Below are positions 1-6,404 of a DNA stretch of 64,000 bases, in pieces (position 1 is the first letter of the stretch; each line of letters begins with the position of its first letter). The position numbers and the translations under genes are program-made. The notes beneath the pieces were generated by a model. That model made no database searches, was not told the DNA's origin, and was given only the letters and a program-made list of their open reading frames with translations. The DNA is taken from the NCBI GenBank assembly GCA_029781595.1, contig JAKOWJ010000161.1:1-64000 (forward strand). The letters run 5' to 3'. This DNA is from Pseudomonadota bacterium. Its GTDB lineage: Bacteria > Pseudomonadota > Gammaproteobacteria > Burkholderiales > Usitatibacteraceae.

Positions 1-108
1 GACCCCCCTGAAGGGTCGTCCGAGACCAGGACGTTGATAGGCCGGGTGTGCAAGGGCGGTAACGCCTTGAGCTAACCGGTACTAATTGCCCGTGCGGCTT
101 GACTCTAT
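1..108 (+). rRNA. rrl: 23S ribosomal RNA, 3' end (partial)
   Basis: Typical 23S 3' terminal sequence ...GAGCTAACCGGTACTAATTGCCCGTGCGGCTTGA; 5' part outside the window. Confidence 0.95.
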
Positions 109-225
109 AACTCTGCATCGAACGCCTGTGCGCCACCCGCGCGCGAGGCAACGCATCACCCAACCACCTTCCCCATCCCCGAACCAGCGCGTGGATGCCC
201 CCTAGAGGCACCCACGACACCGAAT

Positions 226-341
226 TCCTGGCGACCATAGCGCGTTGGCCCCACCCCTTCCCATCCCGAACAGGACCGTGAAACGACGTCGCGCCGATGA
301 TATTGCGGACTACCCGTGAGAAAGTAGGTCATCGCCAGGGC
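226..341 (+). rRNA. rrf: 5S ribosomal RNA
   Basis: ~115 nt with complementary ends (CCTGGCGACC...GTCATCGCCAGGG), CCCATCCCGAACAGG loop and GAAAC core. Confidence 0.93.
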
Positions 342-463: not shown

Positions 464-2350
464 ATGGCGACGACCCGCGCACCCCAACCCGGAACGGCCA
501 CGCCCGCCGCGGCCCTGGCAGCCTTCGCCAGGCGCGCGTGGGGACGTCCCCGTTCCCGAAGCATCGCCCTGTACCTGCTCGTCGTGCTCGCCGTCGCGAT
601 CGCGAGCAGCGTGCCCGGCCCCGAAGAGGCACCGCTGGCGAAGATGCAGCGAGCCGCCTTCGACTGGCAGATGCAGCTCCTGCGCCGCCACTGGCCGCTG
701 CCGATCGCCAACGACGTCGTCCTCGTGGGCATCGACGAGGGCAGCGAGGAGGCGTTCACGGAGCCGCTGGCACTGTGGCACCGCCACTTCGCCCGGTTGC
801 TCGACGCCCTGGGAGAAGCCGGCCCGCGCGCGATCGGCGTGGACGTCGTGCCTCCCGAGCGCTCCTACGACGACATCCTGCCCGGCAGCGACCTCGCCCT
901 CTTCCGCGCGATCCGCGATGCGAGCCGGCGCTGCCCGGTCGTGTTCGCCCTCACGGTCGACAAGGAGGGCAGAGCCGCCCGGATGCATCCCACGTTCGTG
1001 CGCGTGGTGGGCGAGGCCGGGCTGGGATTCGACCAGCAGCTGCGCGACCCCGACTCCGTCTTCCGGCGCTTCAGCGAGGACGAGCTGGGGCAGGACCGGC
1101 CGGCGCCCACGCTCTCGGGCCAGATCCTGCGCGCCATCGGGCGCCCCGTCGGCTCCGGGTACGTCGACTACAGCGTCGGCGGCCCCGTCACCTACGTCCC
1201 GATGCAGGACGTGATCGCGTGGAAGGAGGCCGGTCTCGCCTCGCGCCTGCGGGACGCCTTCGCCGGCCGGATCGTGCTCGTCGGCTATGTCCAGAAGCGC
1301 GCCGACCGGTGGCAGCTTCCCGTGCAACTCATCGCCGTCGAGGCGGCGGAGGGCCAGGCGAGGCTCAACCAGCCCGGGGTCATCACGCACCTTCAGACCC
1401 TGCGCAGCCACCTCGCGCACGGTCTCCTGCAGCCCCTGCCCGCGGGGCTGCGCTGGGCGCTCTGCCTGCTGGCGGCGGGCCTCGTGTTCCTGCGCCTGAG
1501 GCTCGCCGTCTCGCTCGCCGTCGTCGTGGTCCTCACGGTCGCGATGGTCGCCATCGGCCTCTACGCCATTCGCGCCCACCAGGTGCTCATGCCCGTGGCC
1601 CCGCTCGCCTTCACGCTCTGGGCCGGATTCGTCACGCGGGCGATCGCCGACGGGATCGACAATACGGTCGAAAGGGGACGGCTGCGGCGCACCTTCGCCG
1701 GCCAGGTGAGCCCGGCCGTGATGAGCGAGATGCTCGCGGGCAGCCTCTCGCCCGGCGTGAGCGGGCAGCTGGCGGAGGTGTGCATCCTCTTCAGCGACGT
1801 GCGCGACTTCACCACGCTCTCCGAGCGCATGTCGCCGGTCGTGGTGACGACCGTGCTGCAGCGCTACTTCGACCGCATGGTGCGGGCCGTCCATCGCCAC
1901 GAGGGCACGGTGGACAAGTTCATCGGCGACGGGATGATGGTCCTCTTCGGCGCGCCGCAGACCTCTCCCGACTCGTGCGGCAACGCGGTGCGCTGCGCGC
2001 TCGACATGATGCGCGAGCTCGACAGCCTGAACGCGGACTTCGAGGCCGAGGACCTGCCCACCCTCACCATCGGCATCGGCATCAACTTCGGCGTGGTCAC
2101 GGTGGGCAACATCGGCTCGTCGGAGCGTCACAACTACTCGGCCATCGGGGACGCGGTGAACGTCGCCGCGCGCCTGGAGGGCCTCACCAAGGAACTCGGG
2201 CGTAAGATACTCATCACCGAGGCCGTCGTGGCGCGGATCGGGTCGGGCTTCCAGTTCGACCCGCTCGGCAGCCACCAGGTCAAGGGGCACAGCCCCGTGA
2301 GCATCTGGGGCATCCGCACCGCAAGGCCCACGCCCGAACCGACAGGCTGA
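464..2350 (+). CDS. CHASE2 domain-containing class III adenylate/guanylate cyclase
   Basis: CHASE2-like N-terminus (VVLVGIDEGSEEAF), hydrophobic segments, catalytic domain ILFSDVRDFTTLSE / VDKFIGDGMMVLFG / NYSAIGDAVNVAARLE. Confidence 0.9.
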   Translation: MATTRAPQPGTATPAAALAAFARRAWGRPRSRSIALYLLVVLAVAIASSVPGPEEAPLAKMQRAAFDWQMQLLRRHWPLPIANDVVLVGIDEGSEEAFTEPLALWHRHFARLLDALGEAGPRAIGVDVVPPERSYDDILPGSDLALFRAIRDASRRCPVVFALTVDKEGRAARMHPTFVRVVGEAGLGFDQQLRDPDSVFRRFSEDELGQDRPAPTLSGQILRAIGRPVGSGYVDYSVGGPVTYVPMQDVIAWKEAGLASRLRDAFAGRIVLVGYVQKRADRWQLPVQLIAVEAAEGQARLNQPGVITHLQTLRSHLAHGLLQPLPAGLRWALCLLAAGLVFLRLRLAVSLAVVVVLTVAMVAIGLYAIRAHQVLMPVAPLAFTLWAGFVTRAIADGIDNTVERGRLRRTFAGQVSPAVMSEMLAGSLSPGVSGQLAEVCILFSDVRDFTTLSERMSPVVVTTVLQRYFDRMVRAVHRHEGTVDKFIGDGMMVLFGAPQTSPDSCGNAVRCALDMMRELDSLNADFEAEDLPTLTIGIGINFGVVTVGNIGSSERHNYSAIGDAVNVAARLEGLTKELGRKILITEAVVARIGSGFQFDPLGSHQVKGHSPVSIWGIRTARPTPEPTG

Positions 2351-2361
2351 AAGAGGTCGAC

Positions 2362-3201
2362 ATGGAAAAGCTCATTCGCGCACTCGCCATCGCCGCCGCC
2401 TTCGCGGCCCTTCCGGGGCAGGCGGCCGACGGCATCGCCTTCATCACCAACCTCAAGGGCGAGGTGTCCGTGGACGGCGCGCCGCGGCCGCTGCTCATGA
2501 GCGAGCTCGCCAAGGGCCAGAAGGTCGTCGTGGGCAAGGACGGGCTCGTCTCGGTCATGTTCATCCAGTCCGGCAAGGAATACGCCCTTCGCGGGCCGGG
2601 GGACTACACGCTCGGCGAGCGCGACATCACCTCGGGCAGCGGCATGCCGCCCGCCGCGCGCGAGACCCCGTGGCGCGCCAGCGGGGAGGTTCTCGTGAAG
2701 GTGGCCCGGACGTCCTCGGCCTCCATCCGCATGCGCTCGATCGCGCCGCCGAGGGCGGCGACGAAGCCGGTGCTCGAGTACCCCGCCGACGGCTCGGTCG
2801 CCTCGCTCCAGCCGGTGTTCCGGTGGCACGGCGCGGACCCGAACGCGGCCGTCGAGGTCGGCGTGTGGCTCGTGGGACAGGATGGCCAGCCGTTCCCGTC
2901 GGCGAAGGTGAAGGGGGACACCCACCGCTTCTCCGCCAGGCTCAAGCCCGATACGGAGTACGCCTGGACGGTTTCTGCCGGCGGCCGGGAGCTCGGCTCG
3001 GCGAAGTTCCGGACGCTCCCCGCGGCGGCCATCGCCGAGGCGGAGCGGCGGCGCCCCACCGAGCGGGCGGAGTTCTCCGACAGGCTGATGTACGCCCTGC
3101 TGCTGCACGAGCTGGGCGCGGAACAGGACGCCAGGGAGGCCTGGGGCCGGCTCGCGCGCGAGCGCGCCGACCTGCCCGAGCTCGCGAGCCTCGCGCGCTA
3201 G
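2362..3201 (+). CDS. FecR-like domain exported protein
   Basis: Signal peptide; FecR-like segment GEVSVDG...GLVSVMFIQSGKEYALRGPGDYTL; FnIII-like C-terminal part; 11 bp after the cyclase. Confidence 0.7.
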   Translation: MEKLIRALAIAAAFAALPGQAADGIAFITNLKGEVSVDGAPRPLLMSELAKGQKVVVGKDGLVSVMFIQSGKEYALRGPGDYTLGERDITSGSGMPPAARETPWRASGEVLVKVARTSSASIRMRSIAPPRAATKPVLEYPADGSVASLQPVFRWHGADPNAAVEVGVWLVGQDGQPFPSAKVKGDTHRFSARLKPDTEYAWTVSAGGRELGSAKFRTLPAAAIAEAERRRPTERAEFSDRLMYALLLHELGAEQDAREAWGRLARERADLPELASLAR

Positions 3202-3215
3202 GCCGGGGCCGGACC

Positions 3216-4037
3216 ATGGGTGCGCTCGTCCGGGCCCTCGCGTTCGCCGTCGCGTTCGCCGGCGCCCACGCGCAGGCGGCCGACCCGGTCGCGTTCCTCG
3301 CCGACCTGAAGGGCGACGTGGTCATGGACGGCGTCGGGCGCCCGCCGGTCTTCGCCGAGCTGCTGCCCGGCACCCGGCTCGCGCTGGGCCCGGGCGCGAC
3401 CGGCGCCGTGATGTTCGTCACGAGCGGAGAGGAATTCGCGATCAAGGGCCCCGGCGAGTTCGTCGTCACGCGAGGCGGCGTCAAGGCCGATCGGGGCGAG
3501 GAGCCGAAGCGGCGCTCGCCCCCGGTGCGCGCGGGCGGCCCCACGGTCGTTCGGGTGTCGCGGGCCGCAACGGCGAGCCTTCGCATGCGGAGCCTGGCCG
3601 TGCCGGCTGCCGCGCAGGATGGCCCCCAGTATCCCGTGAATGCCCGGATCGCGACCCTGAACCCCGTGCTGCGCTGGAAGGCCGACGACGGGACTCCCCA
3701 ATCGGTCACGGTATCCACCGTGGCGGGCCGGGAGGTCTTCCGCGCCACCGCGCGCGGAACCTCGCTGCAGGTGACCACGCGCCTCGCACCCTCCCAGGCC
3801 TACCTGTGGAGCGTGTCCACGGGCGGCAAGTCGCAGGAGAGCCGCTTCGAGACGCTGGCGGCCGAGGCCATCGCCGCCGCGGAAAAGGCCCGGGCCGCGG
3901 CCAGGAGCTTCGCGGACCGCGCGGCCCTGGCCATGCGCCTGGAGGAGCTCGGCGCCGAGCAGGACGCCCGGGAAGTGTGGGCGCAGCTCGCGACGGAGCG
4001 CCCCGACCTGCCCGAGCTCGCGGGCCTCGCGCGCTAG
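3216..4037 (+). CDS. FecR-like domain exported protein (paralogue of preceding gene)
   Basis: Collinear with the previous protein (GDVVMDG...GAVMFVTSGEEFAIKGPGEFVV; shared EQDARE.W..LA.ER.DLPEL..LAR tail). Confidence 0.7.
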   Translation: MGALVRALAFAVAFAGAHAQAADPVAFLADLKGDVVMDGVGRPPVFAELLPGTRLALGPGATGAVMFVTSGEEFAIKGPGEFVVTRGGVKADRGEEPKRRSPPVRAGGPTVVRVSRAATASLRMRSLAVPAAAQDGPQYPVNARIATLNPVLRWKADDGTPQSVTVSTVAGREVFRATARGTSLQVTTRLAPSQAYLWSVSTGGKSQESRFETLAAEAIAAAEKARAAARSFADRAALAMRLEELGAEQDAREVWAQLATERPDLPELAGLAR

Positions 4038-4125
4038 CGGGGCGGATCCGGCGGCGCGCGCCGCCCGTGATTTGCGATAATCCCGGCACGGGCCGGTGCA
4101 CGAGTACCCTCGGCCCGCCAGGACG

Positions 4126-6159
4126 ATGAACCCGAACCCCCTCTTCACCAGGCTGGCGGCGCGTGCCGCGGCCGCCGCAATCGCGTTCCTCACGGTCGCC
4201 GCAGCGCCCGCGCAGGCCGACGGTCGCGTGGCGCTGCTGATCGGCAACAACGCGTACCCCACCGCGCCGCTGCGCAACGCGGTCAACGACTCGCGCGACC
4301 TGGGCGCCGCCCTCCGGGAACTGGGCTTCAGGACCATCGTCCGGGAGAACACGACGCGGGCGCAGATGATCGCGGCGATCCAGGAGTTCGGAAAGGCGCT
4401 GGACGGCGCCGACGCGGCGCTGTTCTTCTACGCCGGCCACGCCATGCAGTTCAAGGACCGCAACTACCTCATCCCGATCGACGCGGTGATGGCCTCGGAG
4501 GACGACGTCACCTTCTTCTCCGTGGAGGTCTCGCAGGTTTTCGACCGCATGGAGCGCGCCCGCACGAAGTTCAACTTCGTGATCCTCGACGCCTGCCGCG
4601 ACAACCCCTTCCGCGACACCTTCAAGGTCACGGCCTCGGGCCTTGCGCAGATGAGCGGCCCTTCCGGCACGCTCATCGCGTACTCCACCGCCCCGGGCGC
4701 CACCGCGGCCGACGGTTTCGGCCGCAACGGCATCTACACTGGCCAGCTCCTGCAGAACATCAAGATCCCCGACATGCCCGTCGAGGTGCTGTTCCGCAAG
4801 GTGCGGGAGGGCGTGGAGCGCGACACCAAGCGGCTGCAGACGCCGTGGGAGCTCTCCTCCATCAAGGGCGACTTCGTGTTCAATGCCACGGGCCGGCTCG
4901 CGGGGGCGGCGCCCTCCGGCGCGGGCCCCTCGGCCGACGTCGCGGCGCAGCTGGAGCTGCAGTTCTGGAAGAGCGTGCAGGAGTCGTCGAGCCCGGCGGA
5001 CATCCAGGCCTACCTCGACAAGTACCCCAATGGCGTGTTCGCGCCGCTCGCGCGCAACCGCATCGATGCCCTCGTTGGACGCGGGCGAGCCTCGCCGGCC
5101 CCTGCCGTCGTCGCGTCCGCGCCCGCGACGGCGAAGTCGACACCCCCGATCCAGCGGAACGCCGCCGTCGGCCAGGCCGCCGTTCCGGCGCCGACGGAAC
5201 CGAAGGCGGCGACCGCCCCGCCGCCGGCGGAGCCGACCGCCAAGGCCGCGCCTCCCGTCGAAAAGGCGGCCAAGCTGGCGTCGCCGGCGCCCGCGAAGCC
5301 CTCGCCCGCGGATGCGGCCCCGGTGACCGTGCCCGCGCCGCCGCCCAAGCCCAAGGAGAAGGACGACCTCCCCGGCCGCGAGATCGCGCCGGGCGTGCGC
5401 GAGGTCACCTACGCGGACGGGTCCGTCTACGTGGGCGCCATGCGCGGCATCCTGCTGCACGGCAAGGGCCAGTACACGTCGAAGGCTTTCAAGTACGACG
5501 GCGAGTTCCAGAACGGGCTGAAGCAGGGCCACGGAAAGTACGAGTGGGAGAACGGCGACCGCTACGAGGGCGACTTCGCGGACGACCGGCCCAGCGGGCA
5601 CGGCAAGTACCTCTTCGCCAACGGCGACACCTACGAGGGCGACGTGAAGGCGGGCGTGATCTCCGGCCGGGGCACCTACGTCACGCGCTCGGGCGACCGC
5701 ATCGAGGGCACCTTTGCCGACGGCCGCGCGAACGGCGTGGGGATCTACCGCTTCTCCAGCGGCGACCGCTACGAGGGCGAGATGGCCGACGGCAAGCCCC
5801 AGGGCAAGGGCCGCTACTTCGCGAAGAACGGCGACCGCATCGAGGCCGTCTTCGTCGGCGGGCGGGCGCAGGGCCGCGGCGTGTACCGCTTCGCCAACGG
5901 CGACCGCTACGAGGGCGAGCTGACGGATGGCGCCATCACGGGCACGGGCGCCTACTTCTACGCCTCGGGGCCGAAGTACGAGGGCCAGATCGCCAACGGC
6001 ACGCCCCAGGGCCAGGGCGTCTTCTGGTTCGCGGACGGGTCGCGCTTCGACGGCGTCTTCGAGAAGGGTCTCGCGAAGGCCAAGGGCGTACTCATCCGCC
6101 CCGATGGCGGGCGCACCGACGCCGAGATCGTCGACGGGGCGGTGCGCCTGCTCAACTAG
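4126..6159 (+). CDS. Exported caspase-like (peptidase C14) protein with C-terminal MORN repeats
   Basis: Signal peptide, ALLIGNNAY, FFYAGHAMQ (His), ILDACRDNPF (Cys), Ala/Pro linker, then ~10 MORN repeats. Confidence 0.9.
   Translation: MNPNPLFTRLAARAAAAAIAFLTVAAAPAQADGRVALLIGNNAYPTAPLRNAVNDSRDLGAALRELGFRTIVRENTTRAQMIAAIQEFGKALDGADAALFFYAGHAMQFKDRNYLIPIDAVMASEDDVTFFSVEVSQVFDRMERARTKFNFVILDACRDNPFRDTFKVTASGLAQMSGPSGTLIAYSTAPGATAADGFGRNGIYTGQLLQNIKIPDMPVEVLFRKVREGVERDTKRLQTPWELSSIKGDFVFNATGRLAGAAPSGAGPSADVAAQLELQFWKSVQESSSPADIQAYLDKYPNGVFAPLARNRIDALVGRGRASPAPAVVASAPATAKSTPPIQRNAAVGQAAVPAPTEPKAATAPPPAEPTAKAAPPVEKAAKLASPAPAKPSPADAAPVTVPAPPPKPKEKDDLPGREIAPGVREVTYADGSVYVGAMRGILLHGKGQYTSKAFKYDGEFQNGLKQGHGKYEWENGDRYEGDFADDRPSGHGKYLFANGDTYEGDVKAGVISGRGTYVTRSGDRIEGTFADGRANGVGIYRFSSGDRYEGEMADGKPQGKGRYFAKNGDRIEAVFVGGRAQGRGVYRFANGDRYEGELTDGAITGTGAYFYASGPKYEGQIANGTPQGQGVFWFADGSRFDGVFEKGLAKAKGVLIRPDGGRTDAEIVDGAVRLLN
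5428..6114 (+). repeat. MORN repeat tract, ~10 units of 23 aa (69 bp)
   Basis: Repeated YEGxxxxGxxxGxGxYxxxxGDR in the translation. Confidence 0.9.
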
Positions 6160-6225: not shown

Positions 6226-6354
6226 ATGGCCGAACGCAAACGTACCCGACGCAACACCCTCGAGCGCCGGTGCCTCCCGAAGGCCTTCAAGCGCCTCTTC
6301 CTGGGCGCCCCGAAGTCCACCTTCAAGGTGCTCGAGCTGATCAAGAAGAACTGA
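6226..6354 (+). CDS. Small basic protein (42 aa), unknown function
   Basis: ATG ORF MAERKRTRRNTLERRCLPKAFKRLFLGAPKSTFKVLELIKKN flanked by a -10 and a strong terminator. Confidence 0.6.
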   Translation: MAERKRTRRNTLERRCLPKAFKRLFLGAPKSTFKVLELIKKN

Positions 6355-6373: not shown

Positions 6374-6404
6374 AAAAGGGCCGCGCGAGCGGCCCTTCTT
6401 CTTT
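6374..6404. terminator. Intrinsic terminator, probably bidirectional
   Basis: AAGGGCCGC-GCGA-GCGGCCCTT with T-rich/A-rich flanks between convergent genes. Confidence 0.85.

Follow-up and report, generated by a model that had tools for sequence, protein, structure and literature searches.

Organization of the locus

Four consecutive genes on the same strand lie near the start of the window, the whole stretch of 64,000 nucleotides analysed here (contig JAKOWJ010000161.1 of assembly GCA_029781595.1, from a Pseudomonadota bacterium of the family Usitatibacteraceae, order Burkholderiales). They encode a CHASE2 class III cyclase, two exported proteins that resemble MtxA and an exported caspase of family C14 fused to MORN repeats. 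A preliminary description of this DNA had delimited the same four open reading frames, and both their positions and the intergenic gaps of 11, 14 and 88 bp (genes 1-2, 2-3 and 3-4) are confirmed. The four-gene locus is a real, conserved unit, beyond chance recurrence. Its features are the following, with two landmarks outside the module placed last.

464..2350, + strand: gene 1, CHASE2 class III adenylate/guanylate cyclase, 628 amino acids
2362..3201, + strand: gene 2, MtxA-like exported protein 1, 279 amino acids (FecR-like in the preliminary description)
3216..4037, + strand: gene 3, MtxA-like exported protein 2, 273 amino acids, a ~45% identical paralogue of gene 2
4126..6159, + strand: gene 4, exported caspase (C14)-MORN protein, 677 amino acids
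4076..4081, + strand: candidate -10 element GATAAT of the caspase gene within GCGATAAT, predicted from the alignment
4126..4218, + strand: predicted Sec signal peptide of gene 4, covering roughly residues 1-31 and ending in APAQA (from the sequence)
4225..4875, + strand: C14 domain of gene 4 (Pfam, alignment)
4438-4440 and 4594-4596, + strand: codons of the catalytic His105 and Cys157 of gene 4
5416..6096, + strand: MORN repeat region of gene 4, about residues 431-657
227..340, + strand: 5S ribosomal RNA (rRNA) upstream of the locus
1-106: 3' end of the 23S rRNA

Conservation within the family

In 18 of the 28 family genomes, spread over four genera, a CHASE2-cyclase gene is followed on the same strand by one or two partner genes and then by the caspase-MORN gene. 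Wherever any one of the three genes is found in full, the whole block is there (18 of 18 genomes; in G003, G024, G025 and G026 a gene is truncated by a contig end or break). The other 10 genomes, from three genera, lack all three full genes, and they include the complete or near-complete G006, G008, G013 and G015. The co-occurrence anticipated in the preliminary description is thus borne out by the gene neighbourhoods. Three different surroundings are found within the family. For example, in the window's genus (g1) and in g4 an rRNA operon lies upstream and a PepN-like gene downstream, and in g2 the flanks are a GMC-oxidoreductase-like gene and an FlK-type thioesterase gene; the former, like some other flanking genes, is labelled by sequence inspection alone. 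In G018 and G020, only a MORN protein (L109:2720-3580 and L110:330-1271) is left near the same downstream PepN-like gene, with no caspase, cyclase or MtxA-like gene; the MORN gene of G018 is preceded by a histidine kinase/sigma-54 regulator pair.

The CHASE2-cyclase and its MtxA-like partners

The two domains previously noted in gene 1 are recovered by Pfam (CHASE2, residues 44-340, E=3.7e-26; Guanylate_cyc, residues 435-615, E=3.4e-26), and the presumed catalytic residues D445, D489, N566 and R570 are invariant among 16 aligned orthologues. The protein is thereby placed among the CHASE2 class III cyclases. Judged by inspection, its topology is presumably an N-terminal membrane segment, a periplasmic CHASE2 domain, three membrane segments and a cytoplasmic cyclase domain. 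The earlier proposal that all sensing and effector domains face the periplasm therefore stands for CHASE2 and the caspase and fails for the cyclase domain, which follows the last membrane segment. A conserved lysine and serine at what we take to be the purine-selecting positions suggest that the product is cyclic AMP (cAMP) rather than cyclic GMP.

Each MtxA-like protein is predicted to be exported. Protein 1 comprises a signal peptide, an N-terminal beta domain, an FN3/Big-like domain and TPR-like C-terminal helices, and the AlphaFold2 (AF2) model (pLDDT 86.5) shows the beta domain, the FN3/Big-like domain and the C-terminal helices. The top Foldseek match of this model is MtxA (PDB 4z29; E=1.9e-5, TM-score by target length 0.51). 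Among PDB sequences, 4z29 also ranks first with a wider profile (A5; E=9.8e-4), aligned over residues 30-281, nearly the full length, so that the Big/FN3 plus TPR fold is joined by an end-to-end sequence relation. In magnetotactic bacteria, the MtxA gene itself has the gene of a CHASE2 adenylate cyclase as its neighbour (PMC4439547), and the MtxA-like gene adjoins the CHASE2-cyclase in all 18 family loci and in most other loci. With fold, profile and known neighbour in agreement, genes 2 and 3 are, as judged from model and sequence, MtxA homologues.

The label of FecR-like proteins originally given to these two genes is rejected. None of the 27 aligned members matches PF04773 (FecR) at E<=0.1, a PF04773 search of the whole genome finds the FecR domain six times at other places and not at genes 2 and 3, and hhalign gives the MtxA-like proteins a probability of 0.2% against FecR domains. 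G010 does have a genuine PF04773 match, at a distance of about 3 kb from a further CHASE2-type cyclase hit (G010:C1:1119808-1124681), one that has no caspase-fold protease nearby. In the linker of the MtxA-like proteins, a Met-Arg motif (Met124-Arg125 of gene 2, window 2731-2736) hardly varies, whether or not a C14 gene lies next to the MtxA-like gene. The longer RMR motif was considered as a caspase cut site and rejected, the MR core being kept in family members that have no C14 neighbour.

The caspase-MORN protein

Pfam confirms the fusion in gene 4 (Peptidase_C14, E=2.2e-37; MORN, E=9.7e-44 over seven stretches), and the dyad already pointed out, His105 (YAGHAMQ) and Cys157 (LDACRDN), is invariant among 15 aligned orthologues. 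Caspase fold and dyad together place the protein in C14 (clan CD). A disordered linker rich in proline and alanine, at about residues 320-412, separates the two parts, of which the MORN half resembles Morn1 and the caspase half the MALT1 paracaspase in AF2/Foldseek comparisons. The caspase domain has acidic S1-type residues, D55 and D155, and MALT1 is its nearest solved structure; by analogy with metacaspases and paracaspases, both features suggest that the enzyme cuts after arginine or lysine. With the EACC1-associated caspase model NF047832 gene 4 scores 54.1 bits, below the curated cut-off of 140. In L107 (8509-10743), the caspase gene of G026 is interrupted by an in-frame TAA, either a decaying gene or a sequencing error.

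Genes 2 to 4 and their relatives begin with signal-peptide-like segments; here and below, export is called by a crude hydrophobicity rule applied to N-termini. This segment is common to the caspase orthologues, as expected for an exported rather than cytosolic enzyme, and supports the original view that the locus faces the envelope.

Upstream of the caspase gene, the gap measures 78-99 bp in g1, and it measures 3-21 bp in three g4 genomes and ~54 bp in a fourth. Within the otherwise variable g1 gap, GCGATAAT is conserved in all six aligned genomes and holds a likely -10 element for the caspase gene. Given the gap lengths and this block, the g4 genes are likely to be co-transcribed, and the caspase gene of g1 is likely to have a further promoter of its own and is probably more than co-transcribed.

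Recurrence with other caspase-fold proteases

In a set of 399 genomes of the order, nearly every MtxA-like gene that lies outside the family has a CHASE2-cyclase gene beside it. Several kinds of caspase-fold protease neighbour MtxA-like/cyclase loci: TPR-CHAT proteins (L114-L117, L159-L161, L166, L169), a WD40-C14 protein (L167) and tandem C14 proteins with twin-arginine-type signals (L163, L164). Three of these, L114, L115 and L116, are second CHASE2-cyclase/MtxA-like loci in three complete family genomes, and L115 also has a CRP-like regulator. In samples of the class and phylum, WD40-C14 directly adjoins MtxA in L200-L203, with no cyclase nearby, and L196 is an opposite-strand case; TPR-CHAT proteins are found in L197 and L198, and Sel1/TPR-CHAT proteins in L206, L207 and L209. 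The samples are even draws, uncorrected for phylogeny, from genomes many of which are fragmented, and weak MtxA-like matches (E near 1e-8) may come from more than one subfamily.

When C14 and CHAT positions are taken across whole genomes and the window's own arrangement is left aside, a C14/CHAT protease lies within 5 kb of an MtxA-like locus in 23 of 29 genomes, for 0.33 expected under uniform placement (Poisson value 3e-34, relatedness ignored; 13 of 19 by family). The 29 genomes include three family members, G010, G012 and G014, which enter through a second MtxA-like locus. In these complete genomes, a count by hand from the tables gives a protease within 5 kb for 6/6 MtxA-linked cyclases versus 0/19 other cyclase hits listed. 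Nearly all C14 partners retain the His/Cys pair, most CHAT partners show the expected motifs, and most of the neighbouring proteases have export signals. The idea that caspase-MORN was the sole novelty is therefore too narrow, since C14-MORN, tandem twin-arginine-type C14, WD40-C14 and TPR-CHAT proteins fill the same place across families.

Outside the window's own locus, proteins that bind cyclic nucleoside monophosphates (cNMPs) adjoin the cyclase (L115, L117, L161, L165 and L166), with CRP-like regulators, one cNMP-GGDEF-EAL protein and one kinase-cNMP protein among its neighbours. Two-partner secretion genes (a TPS exoprotein and a ShlB/FhaC-type transporter) are found beside the CHASE2-cyclase/MtxA-like pair in L117, L158 and L159, verified with Pfam in L159; they may encode a regulated surface protein.

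Relation to known systems

The closest described relative is the magnetotactic pair of MtxA and a CHASE2 adenylate cyclase (MGR_0208; PDB 4z29; PMC4439547), in which an exported Big/FN3 plus TPR protein likewise stands beside the cyclase; unlike in the window, no caspase is described, the gene neighbourhood having been considered only as far as that paper gives it. A Campylobacterota cluster (CHASE2 adenylate cyclase, FecR-domain protein, phosphodiesterase, TPR protein; PMC9239204) shares the cyclase and an envelope partner, but the partner is termed a FecR-domain protein and no protease is reported, the TPR protein not having been checked for a CHAT domain. In the Burkholderia BiofilmReg operon (PMC5192318), a CHASE2 sensor gene also adjoins the gene of an exported partner; here the sensor is a histidine kinase instead of a cyclase, the partner is LysM-FecR and there is no protease. 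The CyaD1/CyaD2/CyaK-Clr system of Sinorhizobium meliloti leads from CHASE2 cyclases through cAMP to a CRP-family regulator; it differs in its outer-membrane input NsrA, and the parts of the reports consulted do not mention a caspase (PMC13001267, PMC5498481). Among prokaryotic metacaspases and orthocaspases, a Trichodesmium caspase-CHASE2 fusion (PMC3501461) shares the intact C14 His/Cys pair and the link between CHASE2 and caspase; its caspase is cytoplasmic, and the survey text mentions neither MORN nor FecR.

In the open-licence literature, no paper was found on CHAT together with CHASE2, nor any description of this caspase-MORN locus or of a caspase with MORN repeats and a metacaspase. 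The pairing of a CHASE2-cyclase with an envelope partner is thus already known, and the recurrent exported protease partner was not found described in that literature.

Interpretation and alternatives

Gene conservation, co-loss, domain identity, catalytic residues, export-signal-like N-termini and recurrence with other proteases are established. The best explanation, tentatively held, is that the locus encodes a module for signalling across the membrane, with a protease arm in the periplasm. The inner-membrane CHASE2 receptor-cyclase would have its ectodomain bound or gated by one or two MtxA-like proteins in the periplasm, and the exported caspase-fold protease, here C14-MORN, would share that compartment with them. 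With the cyclase domain in the cytoplasm and the caspase in the periplasm, cAMP cannot activate the caspase directly; the natural contact site is MtxA or the CHASE2 ectodomain, because all three face the periplasm. The protease would most likely cut, or be held by, one of the two, and the pairing of MtxA with WD40-C14 in L200-L203 without a nearby cyclase favours the link to MtxA. An envelope signal would then raise or lower cytoplasmic cAMP, which a CRP-like protein or another cNMP-binding protein would read, an output suggested by the cNMP-binding genes that adjoin the cyclase in other loci.

Several observations weigh against this module. Such a protease is missing from the 5-kb range of six of the 29 MtxA loci, some of which lie at contig ends. 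An MtxA-like neighbour is found in only two of the 80 C14 loci closest to the window's (in genomes with names), which implies that the C14 family does many other jobs. The extra arginine of the RMR motif tracks taxonomy and not caspase presence, the caspase gene in the window's genus has a promoter-like block of its own, and the window's own locus contains no cNMP receptor gene. Finally, the substrate and the interaction rest on inference, as do the physical contact, the cut, the direction of signalling and the stimulus.

The reading that competes most seriously, itself unlikely, makes the protease an output of the pathway: a cyclase-CRP branch would control caspase expression, and the caspase, held at the membrane by MORN, would act as a periplasmic effector on surface or cell-wall proteins and leave the sensor uncut. 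The promoter-like block conserved just upstream of the caspase in six g1 genomes, the CRP-like genes adjoining the cyclase in relatives and the two-partner secretion genes by L117, L158 and L159 agree with it; the mostly very short g4 gap does not, and the cyclase-less MtxA-C14 pairs tie the protease to MtxA rather than to a cAMP output. The promoter candidate would also suit plain linkage, in which the caspase is a functionally unconnected neighbour kept by vertical descent, as would the lack of an MtxA neighbour for most C14 genes elsewhere. Such linkage is improbable: adjacency persists through three different surroundings, the genes are missing jointly from 10 genomes, which span three genera, and proteases of different caspase-fold families fill the same place in 13 families.

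A defence role is unlikely too. An anti-phage or suicide system of the Pycsar or caspase-based abortive-infection type, in which cNMP produced upon infection would switch on the caspase, is very improbable. PADLOC does give PycC models as matches of the cyclase domain (best 2.4e-27) and a caspase model as a match of gene 4 (6.9e-14). These matches are at domain level, and the resemblance to Pycsar is confined to the cyclase domain, the other three genes matching no PycTM/PycTIR model. The caspase is exported and the cyclase domain cytoplasmic, no Pycsar-type effector or cNMP-binding gene was found in the locus, and the surroundings (rRNA operon, PepN-like and DEAD-helicase-like genes, labelled by inspection) and stable inheritance across genera argue against defence. 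Least probable of all is FecR-type cell-surface signalling with genes 2 and 3 as FecR-like regulators. The small exported proteins with an N-terminal beta domain and the FecR/CHASE2 clusters described elsewhere (PMC5192318, PMC9239204) would fit it, but the profile, whole-genome and hhalign results largely refute it, and no sigma factor or TonB receptor is seen beside the locus.

Flanking sequences

An rRNA operon precedes the locus in g1 and g4 (window 1-340; L091, L095, L096, L098-L100). An assembly error at the rRNA junction of the window start was considered and rejected because the operon also precedes the locus in relatives. Other g1 genomes have an alcohol dehydrogenase-like gene between the 5S rRNA and the cyclase, which is absent from the window. 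Downstream, at 6226-6354, a small, very basic open reading frame of ~42 amino acids starts with MAERKRTRRNTLERR; a TATAAT-like element precedes it and a terminator-like hairpin follows at 6376.

Biological significance

Beyond the single locus, the data point to a possible but still tentative generalization, namely a widespread new class of periplasmic signalling that combines an exported C14/CHAT protease with an MtxA-like protein and, usually, a CHASE2 cyclase, in which the MORN, WD40 or TPR partners of the protease would be interchangeable. MtxA, a solved protein without a known function, gains a likely role as a sensor partner. For bacterial caspase homologues, exported ones above all, few roles are known; a fixed set of MtxA-like/CHASE2-cyclase partners offers a concrete list of substrates, and cAMP offers a measurable output. 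If the proposed module is real, limited proteolysis in the periplasm would be converted into a second-messenger signal in the cytoplasm.

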